From: Acidimicrobiales bacterium
Lineage (GTDB): Bacteria; Actinomycetota; Acidimicrobiia; Acidimicrobiales; Iamiaceae
Direction of reading: 5' to 3'
DNA: 39,452 bases
NCBI GenBank assembly: GCA_025463365.1
Contig: JAOBWM010000060.1
Location: 1 to 39,452 of the forward strand
Part shown: positions 11,104 to 34,830 of the stretch, piece by piece
How the letters are laid out: each line of letters opens with the position of its first letter
How positions within the stretch are numbered: the first letter of the stretch is position 1
The notes under the pieces: model-generated
Databases searched by the model: none
What the model saw: the letters and a program-made list of their open reading frames with translations, nothing else
What the model was told of the DNA's origin: nothing
Program-made: the position numbers and the translations under genes

Positions 11104-11127
11104 TATAGTCATCTAACACACGTGTCA
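11104..11127. promoter_or_regulatory. Operator copy 3 and -10 box between divergent operons
   Basis: TCTAAC-acacgt-GTCA lies at 11112-11127 (minus-strand reading TGAC-acgtgt-GTTAGA). TATAGT at 11104-11109 is a good -10 box for the plus-strand gene at 11149 and would place the start of transcription inside the dyad. The same dyad is 55 bp from the TTG start of the divergent acyl-CoA dehydrogenase operon and could control both directions. Confidence 0.65.
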
Positions 11128-15082: not shown

Positions 15083-15150
15083 AGACGCGCTGCGCGAGAT
15101 CCGGACGGCCGCGATGGCTACGCTCCGTGCGTTCGGAAGGAGGTGACCGC

Positions 15151-16767
15151 ATGGTCGAGCCTCTGGTACGCCTGCTCGGACCCGTGCAGTACGTCGATTC
15201 CGACGGCTCCGTGGTCGAACTCCCCAGCGTCTCGCTTCGCCGCCTCCTCGGGGTGCTGGCCGTGTCGGGGGACCAGACGCTCCGGGCCGAGTACCTCGTC
15301 GAACTGCTGGCCCTGTCTCCGGGCGCGTTGCGGACGAGCCTGTCGCGGCTCCGGTCGCGCATCGGGGAGGATGCGGTCCACACGGAGGGGGCCGGCTACC
15401 ACCTCCGGTGCAACGTCGACTCCGGTCGATTCACGGCGCTGCTCGGCGATCGGGACCATCCCGATCCGATGACCCGCATCGACGAGGCACTGGCGCTCTG
15501 GCGCGGGAACGCCATCGAGGAGTTCCGGCACGAAGCCTGGGCCGAGGCCTGGGCCGCTCGCCTCGACGAGCTCCGACTCGTCGCGCTCGAGGACCGAGCG
15601 GAGCTGCTGATCGCACGCGGGAGGAGCGGAGAGGCGGTTGCCGCCCTGGAGGCCCACGTCGTCGCCAACCCGATGCGCGATCGCCCGCGTGGCCTGCTGA
15701 TGGAGGCGCTGGCCGGCGACGGGCGTCAGGCCGACGCGCTGCGAGTGTTCCAGCAGTACCGCGGGTTCCTCGCTGACGAGACCGGCACGGAGCCATCGCC
15801 ACACGTGCAGTCGATCGACCTCCGCGTGGCCGCACGGTGGCGTGAGATCGACCTGAGCTCAGACGCCCGCCTGCGCACGACCCGGGGCGCAGGTTGGCGG
15901 GAGCGGACCCGCATCGAGATCCCGCTCGCTCGCGCGCTCGAGCAGGCCGCGCCCCTCATCGGCCGCACACGTGAGCTGGCAGCGCTCGAGGCGGAACTCG
16001 CGCTGGCACGAGGCGGGGAGCTCCGTGCCGTCCGCCTGAGCGGCGACGCCGGCATCGGCAAGACGACCCTGTTGGCCGCGTTCGCGCGAGCCCCGCGCGG
16101 CTCGTCCGCCGCCATGCTCTATGGGCGGTGCGACGAGGTGACGGTGCCGCTGCAGCCGTTCCGCAGCATCGTCCGGGCCGTGGTCGAGCACGCGCCGCTG
16201 TCGGTGATCCGCTCCCATGCGGAGCTCCACGGGGGTGAGCTCCTGCGCCTCGCCCCACACCTGCGGAACCGCACCTGGGTCCCGGACCCCATCGAGGGCG
16301 GCGATGCCATCGAGCGCTTCCACCTCTTCGAGGCGATCGCTGACCTGCTGCGACGGGTCGCAGCGGCACGACCGATCGCGCTCGTCCTCGACGACCTCCA
16401 TTGGGCCGAACCGGCCACGCTCGTGCTGATGCGGCACCTCGTCCGCTCCCTCGTGGGCTCGCCCGCGCTCGTCGTGGCCAGCTACTGCGAGGCGGGCGAC
16501 GAGCTGGCGACAGAGGTGCGGGCCGCGCTCGCCGACCTCGATCGTGCGCCCATCCGACGCCTCGAGCTCCGCGGCCTGGACGACGCCGAGCTGGCCGAGC
16601 TGGCGACCTCCCTCGTCGGAACCGACCTCGCCCCGGATGCCGCGTCGATCGCCGTCGTTCGCGAGCAGTCCGCCGGCAACCCCCGCGACGCGTCGCAGCT
16701 CCTGCTGCACCTCCGAGATCGGCGAGGTCCCACCGGGACCTCGCCACCTGATGGCCTGGCCACCTGA
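15151..16767 (+). CDS. SARP/AfsR-type regulator: BTAD domain plus AAA ATPase
   Basis: 538 residues. The N-terminal part (about 5-90) is an OmpR-like winged helix, followed by a bacterial transcriptional activation (BTAD) helical region to about 245. From about 268 (P-L-I-G-R-T-R-E-L) comes an AAA-type ATPase with Walker A G-D-A-G-I-G-K-T-T at 298-306 and Walker B L-V-L-D-D at 411-415. Full AfsR-like proteins are usually longer, with TPR repeats; here the protein stops soon after the ATPase (S-A-G-N-P-R-D), so it is a short form or a truncation. ATG 15151 follows AAGGAGGTGA; GTG 15127 is an unlikely alternative. The target genes are unknown. It converges with the Mrr-like gene with only 4 bp between the stops. 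Confidence 0.85.
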   Translation: MVEPLVRLLGPVQYVDSDGSVVELPSVSLRRLLGVLAVSGDQTLRAEYLVELLALSPGALRTSLSRLRSRIGEDAVHTEGAGYHLRCNVDSGRFTALLGDRDHPDPMTRIDEALALWRGNAIEEFRHEAWAEAWAARLDELRLVALEDRAELLIARGRSGEAVAALEAHVVANPMRDRPRGLLMEALAGDGRQADALRVFQQYRGFLADETGTEPSPHVQSIDLRVAARWREIDLSSDARLRTTRGAGWRERTRIEIPLARALEQAAPLIGRTRELAALEAELALARGGELRAVRLSGDAGIGKTTLLAAFARAPRGSSAAMLYGRCDEVTVPLQPFRSIVRAVVEHAPLSVIRSHAELHGGELLRLAPHLRNRTWVPDPIEGGDAIERFHLFEAIADLLRRVAAARPIALVLDDLHWAEPATLVLMRHLVRSLVGSPALVVASYCEAGDELATEVRAALADLDRAPIRRLELRGLDDAELAELATSLVGTDLAPDAASIAVVREQSAGNPRDASQLLLHLRDRRGPTGTSPPDGLAT

Positions 16768-16771
16768 CGGG

Positions 16772-17803
16772 CTAGCTGCCCGCGAAGTGCGAGCGCAGGT
16801 GCGGGAGGTGCGAGGTGAGGATCGTGGACACCTGATCCCATGCAAGACCGGTTCGGCCGTCCACGGCCTCGACGCGGTGTTGACCCGAGGCCTCCAGCAC
16901 GCCGACGTAGATGGGGACGTAGACGAGATCGGAAGCGTCGATGCTGAGGGATGAGGCGGGCGTCGGGATGCCGAGGAGGGCGAGGGCCGCGAGGTGGCGC
17001 TGGACCGCGGCCGGGGCGGTGACGCGCTCGTAGGCGGCGAAGGCCTTGCGGATGCCGGCTTGGAGCTTCGCCTCGGACAGGAGCGGCGGAAGGGCCAGCT
17101 TCGGGTCGAACCGGACCTCCTCCGAGGGGGCGGGCAGCCGTCCCAGGTTCACGCCGCCGAAGGCCTCGTACACGTTGTCGACGGTGATCGATCGCAGGAT
17201 CGTCTTGAACCGCTTCTGCTCGGGCTGGGCGACGCTGACCCGGACGCAGTACGCCGGCATCCAGACGACCGAGAACCAGGTCAGGTCCTCGAGCGTCCGC
17301 ACGCCGAGCCGGCCCTTCCCGGAGGATCGGATCAGCTGCTCGGCGGCCGACGTCGATGCTCGGAGCGGAAAACCCCACGCCACCGTCGCACCCGACGCGT
17401 CCGCGGCACCCGCGCCCATCTGGTCGACGACGCCATCGCCGAGGTGACGGCGGATCTCGTCGGGGCCCCACAGCTCGATGCCGAGGTCAGCGGCCGTCCG
17501 CTCCGCACCGGACCGGCACCCGCCGAGGCTCACGATGATCCCCTTGCTCAGTCCGGCGTCGTTGACGATGTAGTGGAGCTTCGACACGACGTCCTTCTCG
17601 ATCGGCGCCTGCCACGCCTTGCACTCCACGGCCACCCGATAGGTCGTGAGCGCGTCCGACTTCTCGGCCAGGACGTCGATCTCGTGCCGACCACCTGAAC
17701 GCCCCTCCGCGAACGCGTTGCACTGCGTGACGTACCCGTGCTGGCCGAAGAACGCGGCGATCCGCTGCTCGAGATCTCGCCCGACCTCCATCGACGACCG
17801 CAT
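16772..17803 (-). CDS. Mrr-like restriction endonuclease domain protein
   Basis: 343 residues. The N-terminal 100 residues carry a PD-(D/E)xK nuclease core of the Mrr type: H40-E-I-D43-V-L-A, then V-A-V-E60-C-K62-A, with Asp43, Glu60 and Lys62 as the catalytic set, followed by V-S-K-L-H-Y-I-V. Mrr-type enzymes cleave modified DNA. The C-terminal 220 residues (with D-L-T-W-F-S-V-V-W-M-P-A-Y) are not recognised and may be a sensing domain. ATG 17803 lies 7 nt after TACCGT (17811-17816, minus strand), so a leaderless start is possible. No methyltransferase is adjacent, which fits a type IV role. It follows the Doc toxin by 39 bp. Confidence 0.8.
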   Translation of the reverse strand: MRSSMEVGRDLEQRIAAFFGQHGYVTQCNAFAEGRSGGRHEIDVLAEKSDALTTYRVAVECKAWQAPIEKDVVSKLHYIVNDAGLSKGIIVSLGGCRSGAERTAADLGIELWGPDEIRRHLGDGVVDQMGAGAADASGATVAWGFPLRASTSAAEQLIRSSGKGRLGVRTLEDLTWFSVVWMPAYCVRVSVAQPEQKRFKTILRSITVDNVYEAFGGVNLGRLPAPSEEVRFDPKLALPPLLSEAKLQAGIRKAFAAYERVTAPAAVQRHLAALALLGIPTPASSLSIDASDLVYVPIYVGVLEASGQHRVEAVDGRTGLAWDQVSTILTSHLPHLRSHFAGS

Positions 17804-17810
17804 GATGCGG

Positions 17811-17816
17811 ACGGTA
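17811..17816 (-). promoter_or_regulatory. Possible -10 box of the Mrr-like gene
   Basis: On the minus strand TACCGT is followed by 7 nt and then ATG 17803. The hexamer equals the -10 box of the antitoxin promoter at 18431-18436 and suggests a leaderless transcript for the nuclease gene, separate from the toxin-antitoxin operon. The evidence is spacing only. Confidence 0.35.
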
Positions 17817-17842
17817 CCGCGGCCGACCGGACCGTCGATCGA

Positions 17843-18226
17843 TCAGCGCACGAGGGCGCGCAGCTCGTCGGCGAGAGCGGTGATCTCCTGGTCGCCGACG
17901 GTGACCCCGATGACGAAGTCGTAGACGGCGTCGTTGCCGATGTGGGTCACGCCGATGCCGTTGATCTCGAGGAAGACGGCAGTGGACAGCCAACCGAGGC
18001 GCTTGTTCCCGTCGACCAGGGCATGGTTCTTCACGACCGAATGCAGCAGGGCCGCCGCCTTGGACCAGATGTCGGGGTAGGCGTCTTCCCCGAAGGCTGA
18101 TGCTTGTGGGCGGGCGGCCGCCGATCCCAGGAGCCCGAGATCACGGACGGGTGGTGGGTCTCCGAGCAGGCGGATGGCCAGGTCGACCAGGTCGTCGAGG
18201 TCGAGGTACTCGATCGCCTCGGTCAC
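17843..18226 (-). CDS. doc: Fic/Doc-family toxin
   Basis: 127 residues, the size of Doc. The Fic motif is present as H68-A-L-V-D72-G-N-K-R76-L-G, which binds nucleotide; Doc of phage P1 phosphorylates elongation factor EF-Tu and halts translation. The central position that is Phe in the H-x-F-x-(D/E)-G-N-x-(K/R) consensus is Leu here (H-A-L-V-D), a mild change seen in Doc-type proteins. GTG 18226 overlaps the antitoxin stop as GTGA. The order antitoxin then toxin is standard. The name doc is by motif and operon layout. Confidence 0.88.
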   Translation of the reverse strand: MTEAIEYLDLDDLVDLAIRLLGDPPPVRDLGLLGSAAARPQASAFGEDAYPDIWSKAAALLHSVVKNHALVDGNKRLGWLSTAVFLEINGIGVTHIGNDAVYDFVIGVTVGDQEITALADELRALVR

Positions 18227-20966: not shown

Positions 20967-22250
20967 TCAGCCCTTGCCGAGGCGCTCGGCGAGGGTCAGC
21001 ACCGTGACGATGCCCTCCTCTTGGAACTTGCCCGTCCCCCGCGCCACCGGCGTGGTGTCCACACCCAGCGCCCGCGCCCGCAGCGCGCCCACCGTCGCCT
21101 GTTCCCGCGGGATGTGGGCGAAGGGGTCGTAGGAGAAGTTGGCCATGGCATTGAGGTGCGTCATCTGGTCGATCTCGTCGTCGGGCACCCCGTGCATCAT
21201 CTTCGCCACCATCTCGGGCGAGGTCGGCCAGGTGGAATCGGAGTGGGGGTAGTCGCACTCCCAGTGGAGGTGGGCCGGGTTGAGGTGGCCTCGGACCTCG
21301 ATGCCCACGGCGTCGTCGATGAAGCAGGTGAGCACGTGCTCGTTGAAGACCTCGCTCGGGAGCTGGTCGCCGAAGTCCTGGTTCGTCCACGCCTTGTGGT
21401 GGCGGTACGTGTAGTCGACCCGCTCGAGGAAGTACGGGATCCAGCCGATGCCGCCCTCGGAGAGCGCGATGCGCAGCTCGGGGAACTTCCGGAACACCGG
21501 CGACCACACGAGGTCGGCTGCGGCCTGCACGATGTTCATCGGCTGGAGCGTGATCATGGTGTCGATCGGTGCGTCGATGGCGGTCATGACCGTCTCCGAC
21601 GACGAGCCGATGTGCAGGCAGATCACCGTCGACGTCTCCACGCACGCGGCAAGGAACGGATCCCAGTGGTCGCTGTGCCAGCTCGGCAGTCCGAGCTTGC
21701 TCGGGTTCTCGGAGAAGGTGACGGCGTGGCAGCCCTTGGCGGCCGTGCGCCGCACCTCGTCGGCCATCAGCTGCGGGTCCCAGATCGGCGGGACGGCGAG
21801 CGGGATCATGCGGCCGGGGTGGGTGCCGCACCAGTCCTCGATGTGCCAGTCGTTGTAGGCGCGCAGGAGGTCGATGGCGATGTCCTTGTCCGGACACGTC
21901 GAGAAGAGCTGGCCGGTGAACCCGGCGAGGCTCGGGAAGTTGAGCGAGCCGAGCACGCCGTTGGCGTCCATGTCGGCGATGCGGGCGTCGATGTCGTAGC
22001 AGCCGGGGCGCATCTCCGAGAACGCGAGCGGATCGATGCCGTACTCCTCGGGCACCCGCCCGGCCACCGCGTTCAGCCCGACGTTGGGCAGCGCGTTGCC
22101 CTCGAACATCCACACGTCGCGCCCGTTCGAGAGCTTCTCCACGAACGGGGCTCGCTCGGCCGCTCGCCCGGTCAGCCGTCCTTCGAACACATCGGGCGGT
22201 TCGACCACATGATCGTCGACGCTCACCAGGATCAGGTCGTCGAGCTCCAC
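20967..22250 (-). CDS. Amidohydrolase-2 family protein
   Basis: 427 residues from GTG 22250, which has GGAGGA 5 nt upstream; a TTG at 22268 is further from any ribosome binding site. The first-strand metal motif is V-D-D-H at 11-14 in place of H-x-H; later landmarks are C-L-H-I-G-S-S and W-E-C-D-Y-P-H. Such proteins are metal-dependent C-N or C-C hydrolases and decarboxylases. It is first in the operon with DUF35, thiolase-like and thioesterase genes, so it may act on the product or substrate of the C-C cleavage pair. It diverges from the double TetR gene across operator copy 4. Confidence 0.88.
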   Translation of the reverse strand: MELDDLILVSVDDHVVEPPDVFEGRLTGRAAERAPFVEKLSNGRDVWMFEGNALPNVGLNAVAGRVPEEYGIDPLAFSEMRPGCYDIDARIADMDANGVLGSLNFPSLAGFTGQLFSTCPDKDIAIDLLRAYNDWHIEDWCGTHPGRMIPLAVPPIWDPQLMADEVRRTAAKGCHAVTFSENPSKLGLPSWHSDHWDPFLAACVETSTVICLHIGSSSETVMTAIDAPIDTMITLQPMNIVQAAADLVWSPVFRKFPELRIALSEGGIGWIPYFLERVDYTYRHHKAWTNQDFGDQLPSEVFNEHVLTCFIDDAVGIEVRGHLNPAHLHWECDYPHSDSTWPTSPEMVAKMMHGVPDDEIDQMTHLNAMANFSYDPFAHIPREQATVGALRARALGVDTTPVARGTGKFQEEGIVTVLTLAERLGKG

Positions 22251-22270
22251 GATGTCCTCCGGTTCCAAAC

Positions 22271-22288
22271 TGACAGCGGCGTTAGATT
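22271..22288. promoter_or_regulatory. Operator copy 4 between amidohydrolase operon and tandem-TetR operon
   Basis: TGAC-agcggc-GTTAGA lies at 22271-22286 between GTG 22250 (minus) and ATG 22350 (plus). TAGATT at 22283-22288 is a possible -10 box for the plus strand. Placement ahead of the regulator gene itself predicts autoregulation. Confidence 0.65.
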
Positions 22289-22349: not shown

Positions 22350-23639
22350 ATGGACGGCACGGGACCCACGCGCCGGAGGCCGTTCGGAACCAACCCCCTG
22401 GTCGGCGAGCGGGGCTCGGAGACCGAGCGGCGCATCTTCCAAGGAGCCCTCGAGGTGTTCGCCGAGGTCGGCTACAACGAGGCCCGCGTCGAGCTGATCA
22501 CCCAACACGCCGGCTGCTCGCGACCGGCCTTCTACCAGTACTTCTCCAGCAAGGATGACGTCTTCTGGAAGCTGGCCCGCGAGCTCGCCGGGAAGATGAA
22601 CGAGCTGGGCCGTCGTCTCGAACGCATCGACGCCGACCGCGACGGTCTCGTCCGCCTGTCGGCCTGGATCGACGAGTTCACGACCCTGTACCAGGTGTAC
22701 GCGCCGATCTTCTCCGCGTTCCAGGCCGCCAGCCGCGACCACGAAACGCTCGCGCGGCAGTCGACCACCGTCGGGGACCGGCTCGACACCGCCATGCTGC
22801 GCGCCTTCGGCCGCCGCAACCGTGGACGCGACCAGGCCCTCGCCAGCGGCATGGCCGCCGTGCTCATCCGGTGCAGCTTCTACTGGGACGTGATGGCGGC
22901 GACCGGTCCCGTCGACCGCCAGCGCCTCGTCGACGGTCTGGCCTGCGTCATCCACCGCTTGTTCCACGGCCCGATCGACGGGGTCAACATCGAACGGGCC
23001 GGGGGCGCCGTGCGCACGCCGCCGATCCCCACACCGGTGATGCCACCGCTCCCCGCGCCGCCCCACGCCCGGCCGCTGCGGCCCCGCGGCGAGCAGACGC
23101 GCCGGCGGCTCCTCGAAGCTGGGGCCAAGGTCCTGCCGGCCCGCGGCTACCACGACGCCCGCGTCGACGACATCGTGGCGACCGCCGGAGTCAGCCACGG
23201 CAGCTTCTATCGCTACTTCAGCGACAAGGACGACTTCTTCCGGGCCCTCGCCGAGGAGGCCGGCGGCCAGATGGTGGAGCTGCTCGGCCGCTTCCCAGCC
23301 GGCGGTGACACCGGCGAGCTTCGGCTGTGGCTCGACGAGTGGTTCGACTCGTACCAGAGCAACGGCGGCGTCATCACCACCTGGCAGGAGATGCAAGAAG
23401 CCGGGAGCGACCTCGTCGAGTTCTCCCAGCAGGTCGCCGGATCGATCACCACCGGCCTGGTGGCCATGTTGGAATCGCGGGGGTTCGGCGATGCGCTCGT
23501 GGACGCGCTCATCCTGCTGGCCCTGCTCGAACGGCTCCCCTACCGGGCGTTCACGCTCGGCTTCACCACCCGCGCCGCGGCCGTCGACGCCACCGTCACC
23601 ATCGTGCGGCGCGGCCTGTTGGCCCAGGCCGACGACTGA
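22350..23639 (+). CDS. Tandem TetR regulator with two HTH domains
   Basis: 429 residues, about twice a normal TetR. Domain 1 has its HTH at about 26-70 (T-E-R-R-I-F-Q-G-A-L-E-V-F, then C-S-R-P-A-F-Y-Q-Y-F-S-S-K-D-D). Domain 2 begins near 246 with R-G-E-Q-T-R-R-R-L-L-E-A-G and has V-S-H-G-S-F-Y-R-Y-F-S-D-K-D-D by 295. A Pro-rich linker (about 225-243, P-P-I-P-T-P-V-M-P-P) joins them. The recognition helices differ, so one chain could read an asymmetric operator. ATG 22350 is chosen; GTG 22341 adds three residues. It heads an operon with two acyl-CoA dehydrogenases and a VOC protein. It is the only TetR-type gene in the window and likely controls the six operators. Confidence 0.88.
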   Translation: MDGTGPTRRRPFGTNPLVGERGSETERRIFQGALEVFAEVGYNEARVELITQHAGCSRPAFYQYFSSKDDVFWKLARELAGKMNELGRRLERIDADRDGLVRLSAWIDEFTTLYQVYAPIFSAFQAASRDHETLARQSTTVGDRLDTAMLRAFGRRNRGRDQALASGMAAVLIRCSFYWDVMAATGPVDRQRLVDGLACVIHRLFHGPIDGVNIERAGGAVRTPPIPTPVMPPLPAPPHARPLRPRGEQTRRRLLEAGAKVLPARGYHDARVDDIVATAGVSHGSFYRYFSDKDDFFRALAEEAGGQMVELLGRFPAGGDTGELRLWLDEWFDSYQSNGGVITTWQEMQEAGSDLVEFSQQVAGSITTGLVAMLESRGFGDALVDALILLALLERLPYRAFTLGFTTRAAAVDATVTIVRRGLLAQADD

Positions 23640-23656: not shown

Positions 23657-24808
23657 ATGGACCTCGAGCTCGACACCGACCAGCAAGAGCTTCGCGACCA
23701 TGCCCGTTCCTTCCTCGCCGACTCCTGCCCGCCATCGCTCGTGCGCGACCTGTTCGAGGGGCGCGTGATCGAGGGGCGCGTGGTCGAAGGGCGCGTGGTC
23801 GAAGGGCGCGGTCCGGCCGACAGCGGCGGGCTCTGGTCGGCGATGGTGGAGCTCGGCTGGCCGGCCCTCGCCGCCGAGGTGGACCATGGCGGCCTCGGGC
23901 AGGGGTTCGTGGCCGAAGCGGTGTTGGCCTCCGAGCTGGGGCGGGTGGTGGCGCCGGGCCCGTACCTCGCCACCGTCACCCAGTTCGCGCCGGTGCTCGT
24001 CGCGGCCGGGGCCGCCGAGCTGCTCGGTCGCGTGTCGGCCGGCGACCTCACGGGCGCGCTCGCCCTGGGAGCTGCCGATGCCTCGGCACGAGCGGACGGC
24101 GACGGGTGGACCCTCGACGGCGTGAAGACCCACGTGCTCGACGGGGCCAGCGCGGAGGAGATCGCGGTCGTCGCCCGGCTGGTCGGATCCCGCGGCCACG
24201 AGGGCGTCGGCGCCTTCCTCGTGCCCCGCGCGGCCGTCGCCGTCGAGCCGCTCACGGTGATCGACCCGACCATGCCGCTGGCGACGCTGCGCCTCGATGG
24301 GGTGGAGGTCGACGGGGCACGGGTGCTGCTCGACCCCCGGGATCCGGCGTCGTTCGACGCCCTCGAGCACGTTCGTCGCCACGCCACCGTCGCCATGGCG
24401 CTCTCCGGGGTGGCGACGTGCCGGGCCATCGTCGAGGCGACGGTCTCCTACGCCAAGCAGCGGCACCAGTTCGGCCGGCCGATCGGTTCGTTCCAGGCGA
24501 TCAAGCACCGGCTCGCCGACCTCTACCTCGCGGTCGAGCGGGCCGATGCGCTCGCCTGGTACGCCGCGGTCTGCCTGGCCGAGGACGACGCTCGCCTGCC
24601 GGTCGCAGCCGCCATGGCCAAGGCCGCCCTCGGCGACTGCCAGCGACTCGCCACCCGCGACGGCCTCCAGCTCCACGGCGGCATCGGCTTCACGTGGGAG
24701 CACGACCTCCACTTCCTGCTCAAGCGGGCCACCACCACGGCGTTCCTGCTCGGCGGGGCCGAGCACCACCGGGCCGAGCTGGCCCGGCACCTGGGGCTGG
24801 TCGCGTGA
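23657..24808 (+). CDS. Acyl-CoA dehydrogenase (partner half with HGGIGFTW motif)
   Basis: 383 residues, 17 nt after the TetR gene. It carries R-H-Q-F-G-R-P-I-G-S-F-Q-A-I-K-H-R-L-A-D and Q-L-H-G-G-I-G-F-T-W-E-H-D-L-H, and lacks the S-E-P-x-A-G-S-D segment, so it is the same half type as the 9930-11057 gene. Residues 34-51 are a tandem repeat, E-G-R-V-(I/V) three times then E-G-R, encoded by 15-bp units at 23756-23812; it interrupts the N-terminal helical region. The stop overlaps the next gene as GTGA. It should form a heteromer with the following product. Confidence 0.9.
   Translation: MDLELDTDQQELRDHARSFLADSCPPSLVRDLFEGRVIEGRVVEGRVVEGRGPADSGGLWSAMVELGWPALAAEVDHGGLGQGFVAEAVLASELGRVVAPGPYLATVTQFAPVLVAAGAAELLGRVSAGDLTGALALGAADASARADGDGWTLDGVKTHVLDGASAEEIAVVARLVGSRGHEGVGAFLVPRAAVAVEPLTVIDPTMPLATLRLDGVEVDGARVLLDPRDPASFDALEHVRRHATVAMALSGVATCRAIVEATVSYAKQRHQFGRPIGSFQAIKHRLADLYLAVERADALAWYAAVCLAEDDARLPVAAAMAKAALGDCQRLATRDGLQLHGGIGFTWEHDLHFLLKRATTTAFLLGGAEHHRAELARHLGLVA
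23756..23812 (+). repeat. 15-bp in-frame tandem repeat inside an acyl-CoA dehydrogenase gene
   Basis: Units near gaggggcgcgtggtc occur at 23756-23770, 23771-23785 and 23786-23800, with a fourth partial unit to 23812. The period is a multiple of three, so the frame is kept and five residues are added per copy. Copy number may vary between strains. Confidence 0.85.
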
Positions 24809-26459: not shown

Positions 26460-27958
26460 AGGTCGCGCTTGACGACCTTGCCGGTGGCGTTGCGCGGGAG
26501 GTCGTCGACGAAGGTGATGTGCCTCGGCAGCTTGTAGTCGCTGAGGCGGTCCTTGCAGTGGGCGAGGAGGTCGGCGGCGGTGGCCTGCTCGCCGTGGCGG
26601 AGGACGACCCAGGCGGCGACATCCTCGCCGAGGACGTCGTGGGGGACGCCGGTGACCGCGGCCTGGGCGACTGCTGGGTGTTCGTAGAGGACGGCTTCGA
26701 CGTCGCCGGCGTGGACGTTGTTGCCGCCGCGGATCACGACGTCCTTGCGGCGGCCGACGATGTAGAGGTAGCCGTCGGCGTCGAGGTAGGCGTCGTCGCC
26801 GGAGTGGAGCCAGCCGTCCTTCCACGTGTCGGCGGTGGCGTCGGGGTCGTCGAAGTACTCGCGCTCCCGGCCGGGGTTGCGCACGAGGAGCTCGCCGGTC
26901 TCGCCGGGCGCCAGCTCGTGTCCGTCGTCGTCGACGATGCGGAACTCGGTGGGCGGCATCGGCTTGCCGACCGACCCCGCCCGCTTCGCCTGCTCCTCCT
27001 TGGGCAGGAAGCAGAACGCGGGCCCCGCCTCGGTCATGCCCCAGGCATTGGAGACCGACGCCTCGGGGAGCCGGTCGCGCAGGCGCTTCATGGTGACCGG
27101 GCTGATCGGCGCGCTGCCGACCGAGCACATGGTGATGCTCGAGAGGTCGGCGTCGTCGAAGCCCGGTGCACCCACGAGCAGCTCGACCATGGCGGGCACG
27201 AGGAAGACCGCAGCGGGACGGCGTTGCTCGACGGCCTGCAGCCAGCGGGCGGCGTCGAAGCGGGGCAGGTAGAGGAGCTGCATGCCGAGCTTCATCGGGT
27301 TGTAGACGGACGCGATCCCGGCGAACGTGAACATCGGCGACGAGTGCAGCCACCCTGAGCCGGACCACGGGGGGACGCCGTTGGGCATCATCGACGCGCT
27401 GCGATGGCGGACCACGACACCCTTCGGCCGGCCGGTGGTGCCCGACGTGTACATGAGGTCCGCGATGTCGTCCTTGCCGACGGGCACCTGGAACTCGGAG
27501 TCGTCAGGATCGGTCGCCGCCTCGAGGGCGACGATGCCGTCGCCCCCGATTGCGGCTGTCGTCGCCACGGTGTGCAGGGCCGGGAGGTCGGCCCGGGCCT
27601 GCAGCAGCGCCTCGGCGGTCGTCGTCCCGGTGATGGCGACGACGGCGCCGGCGTGGTCGAGGATGTCGGCCAGCTCTCGGGCCACCAGGCGGGTGCTCGT
27701 CGGGACGGCCACCGCGCCGGCCTTGTGCACGGCCGCGTAGCCCACGAGGAACTGGGTCGACTCGGCCGGCGGGAGGTGCAGGGCCACCCGCTCGCCGGGC
27801 CGCACGCCCCGGTCGACGAGCCACCGGGCGAGCTGGTTGGACCGCCGGTCCCATTCGCCGAAGGTGAGGTCGACGCCGGCATCGAGGTCGGTGACCGCAA
27901 CCGTGTCGGCGAGCGCCTCGGCCATCATCCGCAGCTGGTCGGTCTGCAGCCCGCTCAC
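26441..27958 (-). CDS. Acyl-CoA synthetase / AMP-dependent ligase
   Basis: 505 residues. It has M-Y-T-S-G-T-T-G-R-P-K-G (ATP loop), N-A-W-G-M-T-E-A-G, L-H-S-G-D-D-A-Y, G-R-R-K-D-V-V-I-R-G-G-N-N-V and the C-terminal R-N-A-T-G-K-V-V-K-R loop with its catalytic Lys. GTG 27958 overlaps the upstream stop (GTGA) and is the operon start; the TAG stop lies inside the last codons of the VOC gene on the other strand. It activates an acid for the dehydrogenase encoded with it. Confidence 0.93.
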   Translation of the reverse strand: MSGLQTDQLRMMAEALADTVAVTDLDAGVDLTFGEWDRRSNQLARWLVDRGVRPGERVALHLPPAESTQFLVGYAAVHKAGAVAVPTSTRLVARELADILDHAGAVVAITGTTTAEALLQARADLPALHTVATTAAIGGDGIVALEAATDPDDSEFQVPVGKDDIADLMYTSGTTGRPKGVVVRHRSASMMPNGVPPWSGSGWLHSSPMFTFAGIASVYNPMKLGMQLLYLPRFDAARWLQAVEQRRPAAVFLVPAMVELLVGAPGFDDADLSSITMCSVGSAPISPVTMKRLRDRLPEASVSNAWGMTEAGPAFCFLPKEEQAKRAGSVGKPMPPTEFRIVDDDGHELAPGETGELLVRNPGREREYFDDPDATADTWKDGWLHSGDDAYLDADGYLYIVGRRKDVVIRGGNNVHAGDVEAVLYEHPAVAQAAVTGVPHDVLGEDVAAWVVLRHGEQATAADLLAHCKDRLSDYKLPRHITFVDDLPRNATGKVVKRDLQLPAE

Positions 27959-30156
27959 CGCGCCTCCGGGTCGCGGGGCAAGCCGAGCAGTCGCTCACCG
28001 ATCACGTTGCGTTGGATCTCGCTCGTGCCGCCGGCGATGGTCAGGCAGCGGTTGGCGAGGAAGCCGAACGTCCACTGGGCGGCATCGCCTTCGACGGTGG
28101 CGCCCCAGGGGCCGAGCAGCGAGAGGCCGAACTCCTGCGCCCGCTGGTCGTGCTCGGCACCGATCAGCTTGCGGATGCTCGCTTCCGGTCCGGGCTTGGC
28201 GCCGCTGACCGAGCGGTGCGTGGACCGGGCGCCGAGGACCGATACGACGTGCGACTCCGCGACCAGCGCGCCGAGACGGTCCAGCAGGACGTCGTCGAGC
28301 TCGAGGTCGCCGCGGTCGCGCATGGTGGCGACGAGGAACAGGAGCGCCTCGATCCCGCCGCCGAACGAGGAGCCGCTCCCCATGGCGACCCGTTCGTTGC
28401 CGAGCGTCGTGCGGGCCAGCGGCCAGCCACCGTCGACCTCGCCGATCACGCAGTCGTCGGGCACGAACAGGCCGTCGAAGAACACCTCGTTGAACATCTC
28501 CAGCCCGGTCATCTCGCGCAGCGGGCGGATGTCGATGCCGTCGCTGCGCATGTCGACGATGACGTAGGTGATGCCCAGGTGCTTGGGCGCGTCGGGGTTG
28601 GTGCGGATCAGGCAGATGCCCCAGTCCGCCTCGGTGGCCATCGTCGTCCAGACCTTCTGCCCGTCGATCCGCCAGCCGCTGTCGACCTTCGTGCCCGTGG
28701 TGCGGAGCGAAGCCAGGTCCGATCCCGCTTCGGGTTCGCTGAACAGCTGGCACCAGTTGGTGGTGCCGAGCAGGGTCGGGCGGACCCAGCGCTCCTGCTG
28801 GACCTCGGTGCCGTGGGCGACGATCGTCGGCGCGGCCCAGGCGCCGACCTGAAGGTGCGGGAGCCGGACCTTGGCCCGCCGCAGCTCTTCGTCGATCAGC
28901 AGTTGCTCGATCGCCTTCGCGTCTCGGCCCCACGGCTCGGGCCAGTGCGGCACCAGCAGCCCGAGCTCCACGAGCAGCGGCCGGCGCTCGTCCTTGGGCA
29001 GCGCGGCCACCGCCTCCACCGCGGCCCGGACCTCGGCTCGCAGGGCTTCGGACTCGGGGTCGTCGGGCAGGTCGACCCGGAGGCGCCGGCGGGTGCCGGC
29101 GATGGCCGCAGTGGCCAGCGCCTTCCGGGCCGGGGTTCCGCCGCCGAGCAGCTGGCGCAGGGCGATTGCCCGGCGCAGGTAGAGGTGGGCGTCGTGCTCC
29201 CAGGTGAAGCCGATGCCGCCGAGCACCTGGATGCAGTCCTCTGCGATCTGCACCGTGGCGTCGAGTGCGAAGGCGAGGGCCGACGACACCACCATCGCCG
29301 CCTCGTCCTCATCGGCGTCGCCCCGCTTCGCCTCGTCGATGGCGTTGGCCGCGTCCCAGGCCACCGCTCGCACCGACTCGGCGGCCGCGAGCATGTCCGC
29401 GCAGCGGTGCTTGACCGCCTGGAACTGCCCGATCGGCCGCCCGAACTGCTTCCGGTCGCACGCGTACGTGGCGGCGGTGTCGACGCACCACGACGCGATG
29501 CCCGCACATTCGGCGGCAGCGAGGGCACCGGTGAGGGTCGTGACCTCGCGCCGGTCGACGAAGTCGAGCAGGCCGGCGCTGCTCACGACCGCGTCGTCGA
29601 AGGTCAGGTCGGCGACCGATCGCGTCGGGTCGAAGGGCGACAGGGTCTTGGCCGTGAACGCGTCGGGCCCGACGAGGTACCAGCGCTCGTCGCCGGCCAC
29701 CGAGACCGGTACGACGACGTGGGCGGCGAGGTCGGCGCCCAGCACCGGCCCGGTCGATCCGGAGATCGTGAGGGATCCGCTCCCGTCGTCCTCGCCCTCG
29801 AGCGCCGGCCCGAGGGCGATCGCCGCCACTCCCTCCATGCCTGCGACGGCGGCGGCCCACATGGTCGACAGCCACGGCCCTGGCGCGACGGCGCGGCCCA
29901 GTTCCTCGGCGACGATCGCCGCTTCGGCCATGCCGTAGCCCTCACCACCCCGAGCCTCCGACACGTGGAGCCCGAGCCAGCGGAGCTCCAGCAGCCGCTC
30001 GACCACGCCGGGAACGGTGCCTCGCTCGGCGTCGATCGCAGCCCGCACGGCCGAGGGCGGGCACTGCTCGGCCACGAACCGGCGGACCGACGCGGCCAGT
30101 GCCAGGTGGTCCTCGCCGATGGCGATGCTCGCTGCCCCACGGCCCTCACCGTCCAT
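27955..30156 (-). CDS. Fused double acyl-CoA dehydrogenase (FadE34-like)
   Basis: 733 residues containing two dehydrogenase halves. Residues 1-365 resemble the HGGIGFTW-type half, with R-K-Q-F-G-R-P-I-G-Q-F-Q-A-V-K-H-R near 235-255 and V-L-G-G-I-G-F-T-W-E-H-D. From about 372 to the end it is the flavin-type half, with F-S-E-P-E-A-G-S-D-L-A, G-Q-K-V-W-T-T and A-G-G-T-S-E-I-Q-R. Mycobacterial FadE34 (ChsE3) has this fused plan and acts on a CoA-linked sterol side chain. ATG 30156 is the only usable start; it follows operator copy 5 by one base and has no ribosome binding site, so how it is translated is unclear. Confidence 0.9.
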   Translation of the reverse strand: MDGEGRGAASIAIGEDHLALAASVRRFVAEQCPPSAVRAAIDAERGTVPGVVERLLELRWLGLHVSEARGGEGYGMAEAAIVAEELGRAVAPGPWLSTMWAAAVAGMEGVAAIALGPALEGEDDGSGSLTISGSTGPVLGADLAAHVVVPVSVAGDERWYLVGPDAFTAKTLSPFDPTRSVADLTFDDAVVSSAGLLDFVDRREVTTLTGALAAAECAGIASWCVDTAATYACDRKQFGRPIGQFQAVKHRCADMLAAAESVRAVAWDAANAIDEAKRGDADEDEAAMVVSSALAFALDATVQIAEDCIQVLGGIGFTWEHDAHLYLRRAIALRQLLGGGTPARKALATAAIAGTRRRLRVDLPDDPESEALRAEVRAAVEAVAALPKDERRPLLVELGLLVPHWPEPWGRDAKAIEQLLIDEELRRAKVRLPHLQVGAWAAPTIVAHGTEVQQERWVRPTLLGTTNWCQLFSEPEAGSDLASLRTTGTKVDSGWRIDGQKVWTTMATEADWGICLIRTNPDAPKHLGITYVIVDMRSDGIDIRPLREMTGLEMFNEVFFDGLFVPDDCVIGEVDGGWPLARTTLGNERVAMGSGSSFGGGIEALLFLVATMRDRGDLELDDVLLDRLGALVAESHVVSVLGARSTHRSVSGAKPGPEASIRKLIGAEHDQRAQEFGLSLLGPWGATVEGDAAQWTFGFLANRCLTIAGGTSEIQRNVIGERLLGLPRDPEAR

Positions 30157-30157
30157 A

Positions 30158-30173
30158 TCTAACGATCATGTCA
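30158..30173. promoter_or_regulatory. Operator copy 5 between divergent genes
   Basis: TCTAAC-gatcat-GTCA lies at 30158-30173 (minus strand TGAC-atgatc-GTTAGA), one base upstream of the ATG of the fused dehydrogenase and 55 bp upstream of the SDR gene at 30229. A protein bound here would block the minus-strand gene at its very start and could also govern the plus-strand gene. I see no canonical -10 box at the right distance for the minus gene. Confidence 0.6.
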
Positions 30174-30228: not shown

Positions 30229-31149
30229 ATGACCGGGTTGTGTGAGGGACGGGTGGCGATCGTGACCGGCGGCGGCCGCGGGATCGGGCGCGAGCACGCG
30301 CTGATGCTGGCGTCGGAAGGTGCCTCGGTCGTGGTCAACGACCTGGGCGGCGCACCCGACGGGGAGGGGTCGGACCTGACCCCAGCCCAAGAGGTCGTGG
30401 CCGAGATCGAGGCGGCGGGCGGGCACGCCATCGCCAACGGCGCCGACATCACCGACTTCGCGCAGGCCGAGGCGCTGATCGCCGAGGCGGTCGAGGTGTT
30501 CGGGCGGCTCGACGTGCTCGTGAACAACGCCGGCATCCTGCGCGACCGCATGGTCTTCTCGATGTCGGAGGCCGAGTGGGACGCCGTCGTCGCCGTGCAC
30601 CTCAAGGGCCACTTCTGCCCAACCCGCCACGCCGCCGCCTACTGGCGGGCGCAGTCGAAGGCCGGCGAGCCGGTCGACGCGCGGATCATCAACACCACGT
30701 CACCGTCGGGTCTGTACGGCAACATCGGCCAGGCCAACTACGGCGCCGCCAAGGCCGCCATCGCCGGCTTCACCACGGTCTGCGCACTGGAGCTCGGCCG
30801 CCTCGGCGTCACCGCCAACTGCCTCGCCCCCACCGCCATCACCCGGCTCGTCGCTCCCCTCATGGGCGGTGAGGAGAACATCTCCGACGAGGTCAAGCAG
30901 TCCCTCTCCCCCCGCTGGGTCGCCACCGTCGGCACCTGGCTCGCCAGCACCGAATCGGCCAGCGTCACGGGCCGAGTCTTCGACGTCCGCGGCGACCGCC
31001 TGATCATCGCCGAGGGCTGGCACGCCGGCCCCCAAGGCACCAACCCCGGCGAACCCGACCGCCTGGGCCCCGTCATCGAAGGCCTCCTGAGCCAGGCCCG
31101 CCCCCACGCCGACCTCGACGGCAACGACGACCCCACCCGCCTGACCTGA
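30229..31149 (+). CDS. Short-chain dehydrogenase/reductase (MFE-2/17beta-HSD4-like)
   Basis: 306 residues. It shows V-T13-G-G-G-R-G-I-G20 for NAD(P), N-D-L-G-G in the adenine region, N-N-A-G-I-L-R-D, T-T-S-P-S-G with the catalytic Ser, and Y171-G-A-A-K175. The N-D-L-G-G-x and N-A-G-I-L-R-D-R features are typical of the 3-hydroxyacyl-CoA dehydrogenase domain of peroxisomal multifunctional enzyme 2 and its bacterial relatives, so beta-oxidation of an acyl-CoA is likely. ATG 30229 follows AGAGGAG. It stands alone, ending in a hairpin shared with the convergent amidohydrolase gene. Confidence 0.9.
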   Translation: MTGLCEGRVAIVTGGGRGIGREHALMLASEGASVVVNDLGGAPDGEGSDLTPAQEVVAEIEAAGGHAIANGADITDFAQAEALIAEAVEVFGRLDVLVNNAGILRDRMVFSMSEAEWDAVVAVHLKGHFCPTRHAAAYWRAQSKAGEPVDARIINTTSPSGLYGNIGQANYGAAKAAIAGFTTVCALELGRLGVTANCLAPTAITRLVAPLMGGEENISDEVKQSLSPRWVATVGTWLASTESASVTGRVFDVRGDRLIIAEGWHAGPQGTNPGEPDRLGPVIEGLLSQARPHADLDGNDDPTRLT

Positions 31150-31176
31150 CGGGCGGCGGCGGCACCGCCTTCAGGT
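31144..31176. terminator. Bidirectional hairpin holding both stop codons
   Basis: ACCTGA at 31144-31149 pairs with TCAGGT at 31171-31176, and GGCGG inside pairs with CCGCC. The TGA of the SDR gene (31147-31149) and the TGA of the minus-strand gene (31171-31173) each lie in an outer arm, so the terminator serves both convergent genes. Confidence 0.65.
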
Positions 31177-32379
31177 GGGGCGGGGGGTGATCAGCTCCAA
31201 GACGTTGTCGCGCATGACCTTGCGGGTCTCGGTCGCGTCGTAGGTGGGGATGTCCTTCACGAACATGGTCGGCTCGGGGAGGCCTTCGGTGTGGGGGAAG
31301 TCGGAGCCGAAGAGGAGGCGGTCGATGCCGAGGACCTCCTTCAGCTGGTCCATGTCGTCCTCGTAGTACGGGGCAACCCAGACCTGCTCCTTGAAGCGCT
31401 CGACCGGATCGTTCTCGAACGTGAACGGCATCTTCCCGTAGCCGGCCTTCAGGTTGCGGAGGAGGTCGGGAACCCACATGGCGCCGTTCTCGATGGAGGC
31501 CAGGCGCAGGTTCGGGAAGCGGTCGAGGACGCCATGGCAGAGGAGGGCGGCGAACGTGTCGGAGATGCCGCGGTCCTGGAAGGCGACGAGCGGGAACGTG
31601 GCGTGCTTGAAGCCCTCGAACCCGCCGCCGGCAGCGGGAGCGCCCGTGCCCCACAGCTTGCCGTAGGCGGTGATGCCGCTGAGCCCGGCGTGCAGCGCCA
31701 TCGGGATGCCGGCGTCGTGGAGCAGCGACCAGATCGGGTCGAACTTGGGGTGGCCGGGCGAGATCCAGCCGTCACCGTCGGGCGCGGGGCCGGGGACCAT
31801 CACGAGGATGCGAGCGCCGGCTTCGAGCACCCGCTGCACCTCGGCGCGGGCGAGCTCGGCGTCGGCGAAGGTGATCATCGGCGCGGCGTACAGGCGGCCG
31901 TCGCCACGGTCGAAGCCCCAGTCGTCGTCGAGCCAGCGGTTGAACGCCTCGAAGGCGGCGTGCAGCGCGATCGGGTCCTTGCGCAGCGCCTCCTGCATGC
32001 CGACGCCGAGCGTCGGGAACAGCAGCGCGCCCTCCATGCCCTGCTCGTCGAGCAACTGCAGGCGGGCCTCACGGTTGCGGTACCCCGGATGCTCGGCGAT
32101 CGGTTCGAGCTCGCCGAACATGGTCTTGAGGTCGAGCCCGCCGGTGTTGCGGCCCCGGAAGTAGTCCTCGAGGCTGCCGGGCGCGGCGATGGGGTCGAAC
32201 GTGGGGTTCGGGATGAACTTGTTGACCTTGCCCCCCACGAGCAGGCGCTTCTTGCCGCCGATGTCGGCCCACTGCATGCACCGCTTCGCCATCTTCGGGT
32301 CGATGTGGCGGATGAAGGCGTCTTCGGCCTCGTAGTAGTGGTTGTCGGCGTCGAACGGTCGGTATCCGAGCGATTCCAT
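31171..32379 (-). CDS. Amidohydrolase-2 family protein (paralogue of the 11149 gene)
   Basis: 402 residues from ATG 32379. It opens with the same altered metal motif as its paralogue, D10-A-D-N-H14, then I-P-N-P-T-F-D-P, a Leu/Asp-rich barrel, A-L-H-A-G, and F-G-S-D-F-P-H near the end. Compared with the 11149 gene the middle of the barrel differs, suggesting a different substrate. An upstream extension in the same frame is Ser/Thr-rich and antisense to the next gene, so it is rejected. It diverges from the gene at 32435 across operator copy 6, and runs convergently into the SDR gene. Confidence 0.88.
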   Translation of the reverse strand: MESLGYRPFDADNHYYEAEDAFIRHIDPKMAKRCMQWADIGGKKRLLVGGKVNKFIPNPTFDPIAAPGSLEDYFRGRNTGGLDLKTMFGELEPIAEHPGYRNREARLQLLDEQGMEGALLFPTLGVGMQEALRKDPIALHAAFEAFNRWLDDDWGFDRGDGRLYAAPMITFADAELARAEVQRVLEAGARILVMVPGPAPDGDGWISPGHPKFDPIWSLLHDAGIPMALHAGLSGITAYGKLWGTGAPAAGGGFEGFKHATFPLVAFQDRGISDTFAALLCHGVLDRFPNLRLASIENGAMWVPDLLRNLKAGYGKMPFTFENDPVERFKEQVWVAPYYEDDMDQLKEVLGIDRLLFGSDFPHTEGLPEPTMFVKDIPTYDATETRKVMRDNVLELITPRPT

Positions 32380-32405: not shown

Positions 32406-32425
32406 TGACGCTCGCGTTAGATACT
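32406..32425. promoter_or_regulatory. Operator copy 6 with -10 box of a likely leaderless gene
   Basis: TGAC-gctcgc-GTTAGA lies at 32406-32421. GATACT at 32420-32425, overlapping its right end, resembles a -10 box and is 9 nt before ATG 32435, which has no Shine-Dalgarno sequence, so the transcript is probably leaderless. The divergent amidohydrolase ATG is at 32379, 26 bp to the left. Confidence 0.65.
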
Positions 32426-32434
32426 GTGCCCGCC

Positions 32435-33280
32435 ATGATCCTGGATGCCTGGGTGAACGTGTTCCCCGAAGGGTTCGCTGCCAACTTCGGAGCGCAGGCG
32501 TCCACCGCCGGCGTCCACGAGCTGTTCGGCGACGACGCCACCAAGGAGCGCACCCTCGAGTCGCTCGTGGCGTCGATGGACGGGGCCGGAGTGGACGTCG
32601 GCGTGCTCACGTGCGGCATCCGTCCGGCGGCCAGCGCTCGGCGCAAGGGCATGCTCGCCCCCGAGGACTACCTCGAGATGGCCGACACCCACGCCGGCCG
32701 GTTCCTCGTGTCCCCCACCATCGAGAAGGCCGGGCGGCCGGTCGACAACTGCAAGCGGATCCGCGAGCTCGCCGAACACCCGGCGGTGGCGATGCTCCGG
32801 GTCACGCCGCTCGTCGAGCAGTACGAGCTGAACCACCGCCTCTACTACCCGGTCTACGCGGTGTGCGAGGAGCTCGGCCTGCCCGTGTCGATCAACATCG
32901 GCGTGCCCGGCCCGCAGGTCCGATCGGCGTGCCAGCACCCGCAACTGCTCGAGGACGTGCTCATCGACTTCCCGACCCTGACGGTGATCGGCGCCCACAT
33001 GGGCCACCCGTACGAGGCGCTGCTGATCGGGTACCTGCTCAAGTGGCCACAGCTGCACGTGATGACCTCGGCGTTCCTCGCCACCTACATGGACCCGGCG
33101 ATGGTGAAGTTCATGGGCTCGTCGCGAGGTCGTGGTCGGATCTGGTTCGCGTCGGACCATCCGATCCTCGACGTCCAGCGGGCCCTCGACGCGGCCCGGA
33201 AGCTCCCGCTCGATGACGAGGCCATGGCCGAGTACCTGGGCGACGCCGCCCACCGGGTCCTCTCGCGCCCACGCCCGTGA
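32435..33280 (+). CDS. Amidohydrolase-2 family protein (ACMSD-like, short form)
   Basis: 281 residues, shorter than the other amidohydrolases here. The first strand reads I-L-D-A-W-V-N-V, where H-x-H would be expected, so two metal-binding His residues are missing; the later H-M-G-H-P and F-A-S-D-H-P remain. It may bind metal differently or be a decarboxylase-like relative with altered chemistry. ATG 32435 lies 9 nt after a -10-like box. It overlaps the ligase gene by 4 nt (GTGA) and leads the unit that may extend through the nitroreductase and SRPBCC genes. Confidence 0.85.
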   Translation: MILDAWVNVFPEGFAANFGAQASTAGVHELFGDDATKERTLESLVASMDGAGVDVGVLTCGIRPAASARRKGMLAPEDYLEMADTHAGRFLVSPTIEKAGRPVDNCKRIRELAEHPAVAMLRVTPLVEQYELNHRLYYPVYAVCEELGLPVSINIGVPGPQVRSACQHPQLLEDVLIDFPTLTVIGAHMGHPYEALLIGYLLKWPQLHVMTSAFLATYMDPAMVKFMGSSRGRGRIWFASDHPILDVQRALDAARKLPLDDEAMAEYLGDAAHRVLSRPRP

Positions 33281-34830
33281 GCGAAGGGGCCGTGCGCGAG
33301 ACGGCCATGGGCGAGCACCCCGCGTTCGTCGCGGCCGCCGAACCCGACCGGATCGCGGTGGTCATGGCGGGAAGCGGCGAGACGCGCACCTACCGCGAGC
33401 TCGACGAGGCCTCGCGGCGCCTCGCCCTCGCGCTGCATGACCGGGGCCTGCGACGCGGCGACCACCTCGCCGTCCTGCTCGACAACCGGCCCGCCTTCTT
33501 CGAGGCCGTGTGGGCCGGGCTGCGCAGCGGGCTGTACGTGACGCCGATCAACTGGCACCTCACCGCGGCCGAGGCGGCGTTCATCGCCTCGGACTGCGGC
33601 GCCTCTGCGCTGGTGGCCGGGGCGGCGCTGGCGCCGGTGGTCTCGGCCCAGGGATCCGAGCTCGACGACATCGCGGTGCGGCTCGCCGTCGGGGGCTCGC
33701 TGCCCGGGTTCGAGGCCTACCAGGAGGTGGTGGACGGGCGTGCCCTCGATGACGACCCGGACCCGTGCGAGGGGCAGTGGATGTTCTACTCATCGGGCAC
33801 GACCGGCCGGCCCAAGGGGATCGTGCCCGGACCGGTGGGCCAGCCGCTCGGCAACCCCTCCGCGTTCACCCAGATGCTCACGGGGCTGTGGGGCTTCACC
33901 GGCGACACCGTGTACCTCAGCCCAGCGCCGCTCTACCACGCCGCTCCGGCCGGCTGGTCGACGACGGCCCAGCGCATCGGCGGCACCGTCGTCGTCCTCG
34001 AGCAGTTCGATCCGGTCGAGTTCCTGGCTGCCATCGAGCGGTTCCGGGTCAGCCACGTGCAGGTGGTGCCGACTCACCTCGTCCGCCTCCTCAAGCTGCC
34101 GGCCGAGGTGCGCGAGCGCTACGACCTGTCCAGCCTGCGGATGGTCGTCCACGCCGCCGCGCCCTGCCCGATCGAGGTGAAGCGGGCCGCGATCGAGTGG
34201 CTCGGCCCGATCGTGAACGAGTACTACGCGGGGAGCGAGGGGAACGGGTTCTGCGCCATCGGATCCGAGGAGTGGCTCGCCCGACCCGGCTCGGTGGGCC
34301 GCTCGCTGCTCGGCGCGATCCACATCGTGGGGGCCGGCGACGAGGAGGTCCCCACCGGAGACGAGGGCCAGGTCTGGTTCGAGACGGCGCGGCGCTTCGA
34401 GTACCACGGCGACCCGGTCAAGACCGCGTCGGCCTGGAACGACAAGGGCTGGAGCACGATCGGCGACATCGGCAAGCTCGACGAGGACGGCTACCTCTAC
34501 CTGACGGACCGCGCCTCGAACATGATCATCTCGGGCGGCGTGAACATCTACCCGCAGGAGGTCGAGGACCTGCTGCTCGGCCATCCCGCGGTGCTCGATG
34601 CCGCGGTGATCGGCACGCCCCACCCGGACCTCGGCGAGCAGGTCACCGCCTTCGTGCAGCCCGACCGCGCGGTGTCCGAGCCGGGCGCGGCCGATGTCGA
34701 CCTCCCCGACGCGCTGATCGCGTACTGCCGCGAGCACCTCGCCCACTTCAAGTGCCCCCGCACCGTGAACCTGGTCGACGAGCTCCCCCGCCTCCCCACC
34801 GGCAAGCTCCTCAAGCGCCTCCTCCGATGA
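33277..34830 (+). CDS. Acyl-CoA synthetase (FadD4-like)
   Basis: 517 residues from GTG 33277, which overlaps the preceding stop as GTGA; ATG 33307 is an alternative. Motifs: Y-S-S-G-T-T-G-R-P-K-G, N-E-Y-Y-A-G-S-E-G-N-G (in place of the common Y-G-x-T-E), S-T-I-G-D-I-G, L-T-D-R-A-S-N-M-I-I-S-G-G-V-N-I-Y and P-T-G-K-L-L-K-R with the catalytic Lys. The Y-A-G-S-E form is typical of mycobacterial FadD4-type ligases. It is the third ligase in the window, so several different acids, or different steps, are activated. Confidence 0.92.
   Translation: MSEGAVRETAMGEHPAFVAAAEPDRIAVVMAGSGETRTYRELDEASRRLALALHDRGLRRGDHLAVLLDNRPAFFEAVWAGLRSGLYVTPINWHLTAAEAAFIASDCGASALVAGAALAPVVSAQGSELDDIAVRLAVGGSLPGFEAYQEVVDGRALDDDPDPCEGQWMFYSSGTTGRPKGIVPGPVGQPLGNPSAFTQMLTGLWGFTGDTVYLSPAPLYHAAPAGWSTTAQRIGGTVVVLEQFDPVEFLAAIERFRVSHVQVVPTHLVRLLKLPAEVRERYDLSSLRMVVHAAAPCPIEVKRAAIEWLGPIVNEYYAGSEGNGFCAIGSEEWLARPGSVGRSLLGAIHIVGAGDEEVPTGDEGQVWFETARRFEYHGDPVKTASAWNDKGWSTIGDIGKLDEDGYLYLTDRASNMIISGGVNIYPQEVEDLLLGHPAVLDAAVIGTPHPDLGEQVTAFVQPDRAVSEPGAADVDLPDALIAYCREHLAHFKCPRTVNLVDELPRLPTGKLLKRLLR

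Follow-up and report, generated by a model that had tools for sequence, protein, structure and literature searches.

The window, i.e., the whole 39,452-nucleotide stretch of DNA that was analysed, is contig C16 of an Acidimicrobiales genome (G000; 4.31 Mb in 219 contigs), and carries the gene for a double TetR regulator at 22350-23639 (+). Translation of 22350-23636 yields 429 residues without stops, in which Pfam recognizes two TetR_N stretches (98.6 bits vs. a curated cut-off of 24), placing the product in the TetR family; orthologues were found as well. The sequence-only reading, which had claimed two TetR HTH domains and a Pro-rich linker within a single 429-residue chain, was thus borne out. 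The recognition helix of the first HTH (HTH1; CSRPAFYQYF, residues 56-65) is encoded at 22515-22544 (+) and is conserved in close orthologues, while that of the second (HTH2; VSHGSFYRYF, residues 281-290) is encoded at 23190-23219 (+). The Pro-rich linker, delimited by eye, covers approximately residues 214-243 (22989-23078, +), with pLDDT values below 50 at residues 218-223 and 236-238. Both TetR units are complete, and the helices of each are present in the AlphaFold model. None of the 25 named TetR equivalog families of NCBIfam that were listed (MftR, FasR, FadR, KstR, and others) reached its cut-off, the best score being that of ScbR_bind_reg (90.9 vs. a cut-off of 150). Downstream of the regulator, near the start of an acyl-CoA dehydrogenase gene, short near-perfect tandem repeats of the GTGGTCGAAGGGCGC type were seen by eye at 23760-23810.

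The motif TGACRN5GTTAGA occurs exactly six times in the window, against a mean of 0.00 across 100 shuffles. A scan of the window with TRACRN4YGTYA, a degenerate symmetric core that leaves both the G/A difference and the GA flank open, gave perfect matches at the same six places and no others; all read TGAC..GTTA followed by GA, and all six continue as GTTAGAT. One of these putative operators (22271-22286, +) is separated by 63 bp from the ATG at 22350, confirming the earlier observation of a site just upstream of the regulator's own gene, and is shared with a divergent amidohydrolase gene (20967-22268, −; Pfam), which is followed on the same strand by genes for a ChsH2-like OB protein, a thiolase, and a thioesterase. 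Two further putative operators precede an enoyl-CoA hydratase gene (site 756-771, −; gene 809-1711, +; Pfam ECH_1) and a cytochrome P450 gene (site 1709-1724, +; gene 1781-2944, +; Pfam p450), the starts of both genes being set by eye. An open frame at 2-772 (−) begins inside the operator at 756 and runs off the contig end; it lacks a Pfam match and shows no clear codon signal.

The remaining three putative operators each lie between two genes with Pfam assignments. The site at 11112-11127 (−) separates an acyl-CoA dehydrogenase gene (9930-11057, −) from an amidohydrolase gene (Amidohydro_2; 11149-12342, +), and that at 30158-30173 (−) lies between a gene for an acyl-CoA dehydrogenase with two ACAD units in one chain (27955-30156, −; also NCBIfam) and a short-chain dehydrogenase (SDR) gene (30229-31149, +). 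The last (32406-32421, +) is flanked by two amidohydrolase genes with starts set by eye (31171-32379, −, and 32435-33280, +), the second of which is followed by an acyl-CoA ligase gene (33277-34830); a similar site with a similar right flank is present at 9750 in the orthologous locus L009. The two-unit acyl-CoA dehydrogenase has 733 residues, with an IpdE2-like part followed by a part resembling the pimC_large model, and is a second fused enzyme pair in the putative regulon. At 15127-18226, a BTAD/AAA-type regulator, an Mrr-like endonuclease, and a Fic/DOC protein are encoded among the catabolic genes.

Genome-wide, the exact pattern TGACRN4YGTTAGA was matched eight times, i.e., at the six places in the window contig, at C9:23794 (between a thiolase and an acyl-CoA ligase gene), and at C63:1909 (within a called ORF, upstream of the FAD oxidoreductase domain that comes first in it). 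The presence of six of these eight sites on one contig corresponds to a binomial P of 1.6e-11. Allowing one mismatch gave 20 matches vs. 3 for the reversed control pattern, and the reversed controls of the degenerate core and the exact pattern gave 2 + 2 (vs. 19 + 19) and 0 matches, respectively. Among the one-mismatch or symmetric relatives of the site, C9:27341 lies between an SDR gene and a gene for a branched-chain-type substrate-binding protein, C9:35572 before an alcohol dehydrogenase gene, and C63:5075 where an acyl-CoA ligase gene and an acyl-CoA dehydrogenase gene begin; one-mismatch sites were also present on C25 (L019) and C2 (L020), and two more TGAC..GTTA places without GA were found at C123:3853 and C138:5583. 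The gene set points to a pathway that would take up a lipid- or sterol-like acid, oxidise it, activate it with CoA, and degrade it by beta-oxidation; both substrate and ligand are guesses from the gene families.

The 19 genomic places matching the degenerate core comprised 11 TGAC..GTTA, 8 TGAC..GTCA, and 0 TAAC..GTTA forms. Ordinary TetR units are homodimers, and the eight symmetric TGAC..GTCA places might be taken to favour an arrangement in which two chains swap domains, N pairing with N and C with C, and each pair occupies a symmetric site. However, all six window sites are asymmetric, and the genome contains no TAAC..GTTA at that spacing.

The sequence context of the site was derived from 39 sites with their flanks from the genome itself and close relatives, in which the fixed letters are uninformative, as the sites were collected by the full pattern. 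At the free positions, A was found at −2 in 30/39 sites, A or T at −3 in 34/39, and T at +17 in 28/39, with no conservation at −1 and 0, the mirror positions of the GA. Both halves hence share a weak outer A/T preference, with the extra GA restricted to the right half. This asymmetry could in part be a promoter effect, in which overlap of GTTAGATTAG with a −10 box conserves the GA(T) flank, while what the regulator reads is a near-symmetric core. In keeping with this, the own promoters of close orthologues run GTTAGATTAG, GTTAGATTCG, or GTTAGATTAA, all resembling the TANNNT consensus of the −10 box. Nevertheless, the G/A difference sits in the core; the site at 756 faces away from the sole neighbouring gene with a recognised domain (frame 2-772 being a possible gene on its other side); T17 is present in just 28 of the 39 sites and other targets lack the TTAG run; and GTTAG occurs in reverse orientation upstream of two other double TetR genes (L051 and L052). 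We thus deem a partial promoter origin of the asymmetry unlikely, even if, in the promoter of the regulator gene itself (GTTAGATTAG), the GA flank could partly serve as a −10 element.

The constancy of the asymmetry between TGACR and GTTAGA, as put forward in the sequence-only reading, held for all six window sites but was less strict across the wider family, in which sites of the GTCAGA form are also found. In seven genomes with a double TetR, TRACRN4YGTYAGA gave 88 matches, i.e., 48 TGAC..GTTAGA, 38 TGAC..GTCAGA, 1 TAAC..GTCAGA, and 1 TAAC..GTTAGA. Of the 38 TGAC..GTCAGA matches, 26 fall in two genomes (G102 and G143), and another double TetR gene (L055) is preceded by one GTCAGA site; single TetRs or other doubles may own the remaining GTCAGA sites. 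The site upstream of this distant double is a symmetric TCTGACACGGACGTCAGA (G102:C56:41058-41075), with more TGAC..GTCAGA matches on its contig. Likewise, G143:C24:9240-52347 contains eight TGAC..GTCAGA matches (at seven places) on a contig that also carries a double TetR gene with a GTTAGA site.

The co-occurrence of regulator and site was examined by seeking the gene in the genome_contigs collection and across 248 Acidimicrobiales genomes, i.e., genomes from the order of the host. TGACRN4YGTTAGA was present upstream of the gene, in the same orientation, at all 11 full-length loci of at least 47% identity (L009-L013 and L022-L027, the sites of L012 and L013 being repeats of those of L023 and of L024/L025), and the sites mostly continued TTAG. 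The next full-length locus (L028, 45% identity) had no such site in the 330 bp upstream. Among fragments of similar identity, an N half (L056) carried the site, and a C half at a contig end (L033/L057) did not. These fragments are N and C halves at the ends of contigs C378 and C68 of G197 (L056, L057) and are probably one gene split by the assembly; upstream of L056, one asymmetric GTTAGA and one GTCAGA site were found. Across 396 genomes of the phylum, a protein search at E 1e-35 gave matches in three, all members of the same order and one of them the genome itself.

In our reading of the match table, a double TetR is present in 15 of the genomes, i.e., G000, G003, G005, G023, G046, G061, G102, G111, G140, G143, G194, G197 (in two pieces), G205, G217 (partial), and G234. 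The exact pattern was matched 71 times in these 15 genomes and 70 times in the other 233, 12 of the latter matches being in G231 and G062. Its reversed control gave 0 matches in all 15 genomes and up to 5 per genome elsewhere. At least four exact sites were found in 10 of the 15 genomes with a double TetR vs. 2 of the 233 without (Fisher P of 9e-13, which is indicative since the genomes are related). The two exceptions, G231 and G062, have 5 and 7 sites, and a search down to E 1e-6 returned short ordinary TetR matches and no double TetR in either. These genomes might be taken to mean that the sites belong to another regulator and that the double TetR is merely located among them. Yet, both are congeners of G000 and G003 in 480 and 510 contigs, with G062 77% complete, so it is possible that the gene is missing from these fragmented assemblies. 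With a site upstream at 11/11 full-length close loci and the joint occurrence over 248 genomes, ownership by another regulator appears very improbable, and the double TetR itself is the most plausible reader of the sites.

As to which TetR unit would read which half-site, the upstream regions (350 bp) of 69 distinct TetR reading frames from the order were compared, with chance levels taken from 200 resamplings. Of the single-domain TetRs with an S[HQ]GTFY helix, 11/41 had TGACRN4YGTCA upstream (chance mean of 0.065), 0/41 had TGACN6GTTA, and 30/41 had neither form within 350 bp. Of 19 doubles, 11 had TGACN6GTTA upstream (chance of 0.025), two had the symmetric form (L053 and L055), and six had neither within 350 bp. 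This count excludes L012 and L013 as repeats of upstream sites, L034/L058 (cut at a contig end), the split G197 gene (L056, L057/L033), and L023, which has an asymmetric site but was missed by the helix pattern (PAYYQYF); one single TetR, L107 (−), was also excluded, having only 88 bp upstream. It should be borne in mind that the doubles share one origin, so that these counts are not independent events.

Because single TetRs resembling the C half carry symmetric TGACRN4YGTCA palindromes where they have a site, HTH2 (SHGSFY) most likely reads TGACR. The single TetRs of the order with SHGTFYLYF or SQGTFYLYF helices and an upstream palindrome (e.g., L037, L041, and L105) share with the double TetR a helix near that of HTH2, the TGACR half-site, and the 14-bp core spacing, but differ in having one domain and a symmetric palindrome. 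HTH1 (SRPAFY), whose helix is unlike the S[HQ]GTFY type, then probably reads TCTAAC (i.e., GTTAGA on the other strand) by elimination, as no single-domain relative with an HTH1-like helix or palindrome was found. Indeed, none of the 69 frames of the order is a single TetR with an HTH1-like helix (L056 being a broken double), a symmetric TCTAACRN4YGTTAGA occurs in 1 of 396 genomes of the phylum (G381), and four more single TetRs without the S[HQ]GTFY helix (L097 on both strands, L107 +, and L110) had no T[AG]ACN6GT[CT]A upstream. At L097 (G003:C1:11500-14500), two adjacent, divergent single-domain TetR genes encode unlike helices (AHGTFYRYF and ARTTFYEYF) and might represent an unfused pair acting together. 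A covariation code between HTH1 and the right half was also considered, with L053 (SRVSIYQYF) and L055 (SRATLYQYF) having GTCA, and the GTTA doubles having F or Y at that position; it was dropped as unclean, since L035 (SRAALYQYF) has a GTTAGA site 4 kb away.

The fold of the chain alone, without DNA, was modelled with AlphaFold2 from six sequences (the window protein and L009-L013), giving a pLDDT of 78.1 and a pTM of 0.76. The top Foldseek match of this model was the Mycobacterium tuberculosis double TetR Mce3R (Rv1963c; 9b7y) over the whole chain (E of 4.4e-7, rmsd of 8.6). A comparison via VIA with 9b7y gave a Z of 20.7 over 346 aligned residues (model residues 17-425 on 8-398) with a large rmsd of 5.4, vs. 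approximately 16 for the best single TetR and less for the others. The structure prediction called for by the sequence-only reading thus matched a known double TetR over its whole length, and the proposed pseudo-dimer with one reader per half gains support from this Mce3R-like predicted fold, from the palindromes of the single-domain relatives, and from the joint occurrence of site and gene.

In the Mce3R report (PMC11667970), cryo-EM revealed the two units of Mce3R to form one asymmetric four-helix bundle, the two unlike HTHs to bind a nonpalindromic 25-bp operator, and the chains to pair and hold two duplexes. Since these pseudo-dimers pair on two duplexes, dimerisation of our chain on two sites would leave the pseudo-dimer reading standing. 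The authors of that report favour an M1-M2 arrangement, with M1 alone not binding (PMC11667970); together with the whole-chain match of our predicted single chain to Mce3R, this argues against the domain swap between two chains considered above, which we regard as improbable. The folding of two TetR units onto each other within one chain hence remains the preferred arrangement.

The descent of the fusion was assessed by sequence. In searches of solved structures, the N half retrieved FasR (6o6n) first, as its best solved relative, and did not retrieve Mce3R at E 1e-5, and the C half retrieved Mce3R third, aligned to the N domain of Mce3R. A search with the entire chain, on the other hand, placed Mce3R first among solved relatives, its second HTH being aligned to ours. 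A domain-for-domain orthology with Mce3R (N to N and C to C) was thus not seen in these searches, and none of 30 window ORFs submitted to Pfam had a Mce or YrbE domain at E 1e-5, so that no mce/yrbE operon was seen beside the gene among these ORFs. In a tree confined to 92 TetR units of the order, the N units (23 rows) fell into a single clade (97/97) and 21 of the C units into a second one (99/98). The branching of the two clades was largely parallel, and single TetRs were placed between them; the C units of L055 and L083, the doubles most distant from the others, joined the C clade weakly (91/29). This tree is most simply read as a single fusion event within the order, whose descent looks separate from that of Mce3R. 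As both halves fall among the single TetRs of the order, some of which have TGAC..GTCA palindromes, one half apparently kept an old reading and the other changed. We lean, with some reserve, towards a second, independent natural single-chain TetR pseudo-dimer in Acidimicrobiales, in which a reader of the TGACRN4YGTCA palindrome was fused to a paralogue, with the C unit keeping its half-site and the N unit shifting to TCTAAC. If true, the family would provide a natural half-site code and a path from a symmetric to an asymmetric operator.

Taken together, the gene probably encodes an autoregulating single-chain TetR pseudo-dimer, with one chain per TGACRN4YGTTAGAT site, the half-sites split between HTH2 and HTH1, and an acyl-CoA catabolic regulon under its control. 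The product, most likely a repressor, would fold its two TetR units onto each other within one chain, as in Mce3R, and cover one 16-17-bp site, its C-terminal HTH (SHGSFYRYF) reading TGACR and its N-terminal HTH (SRPAFYQYF) reading TCTAAC on the opposite strand. It would thereby switch the P450, ligase, acyl-CoA dehydrogenase, hydratase, and amidohydrolase genes and the ChsH2/thiolase pair, and would probably be released from the DNA by a CoA thioester or carboxylic intermediate. The family adds to Mce3R a second lineage, whose operator is compact and present in many natural copies and which has single-domain relatives on symmetric sites; in it, the evolution of half-site specificity after gene fusion becomes testable. 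It also predicts a catabolic regulon in a little-studied actinobacterial group.

The principle of one reader per half is already known from Mce3R; new here are a further double TetR from an apparently separate fusion, its compact and repeatedly occurring operator, the predicted regulon, and a proposed half-site assignment open to simple tests. In the Mce3R report (PMC11667970), double TetRs are described as a subfamily with 204 predicted members in actinomycetes, and the Mce3R structure is called the first by its authors. Among the literature matches listed, in which subscription journals are thinly covered, Mce3R was the only natural double TetR with both a structure and an operator, the other matches being engineered Tet systems, ordinary TetR papers, and unrelated work. 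The engineered single-chain Tet transregulators (PMC1797012) likewise join two TetR units by a linker and fold intramolecularly, but are artificial and place Tn10 TetR units on tetO. Like Mce3R, the protein described here has two TetR units in a chain of approximately 400 residues that match over the whole predicted fold, a putative asymmetric operator, autoregulation (here inferred from the site), and a predicted regulon of lipid/CoA type; it differs in sharing just 15-16% identity in structural alignments and in having a 16-17-bp pseudo-palindrome rather than nonpalindromic 25-bp sites. TetRs of the FasR and FadR type also regulate acyl-CoA metabolism, but do so as single-domain homodimers on other operators.
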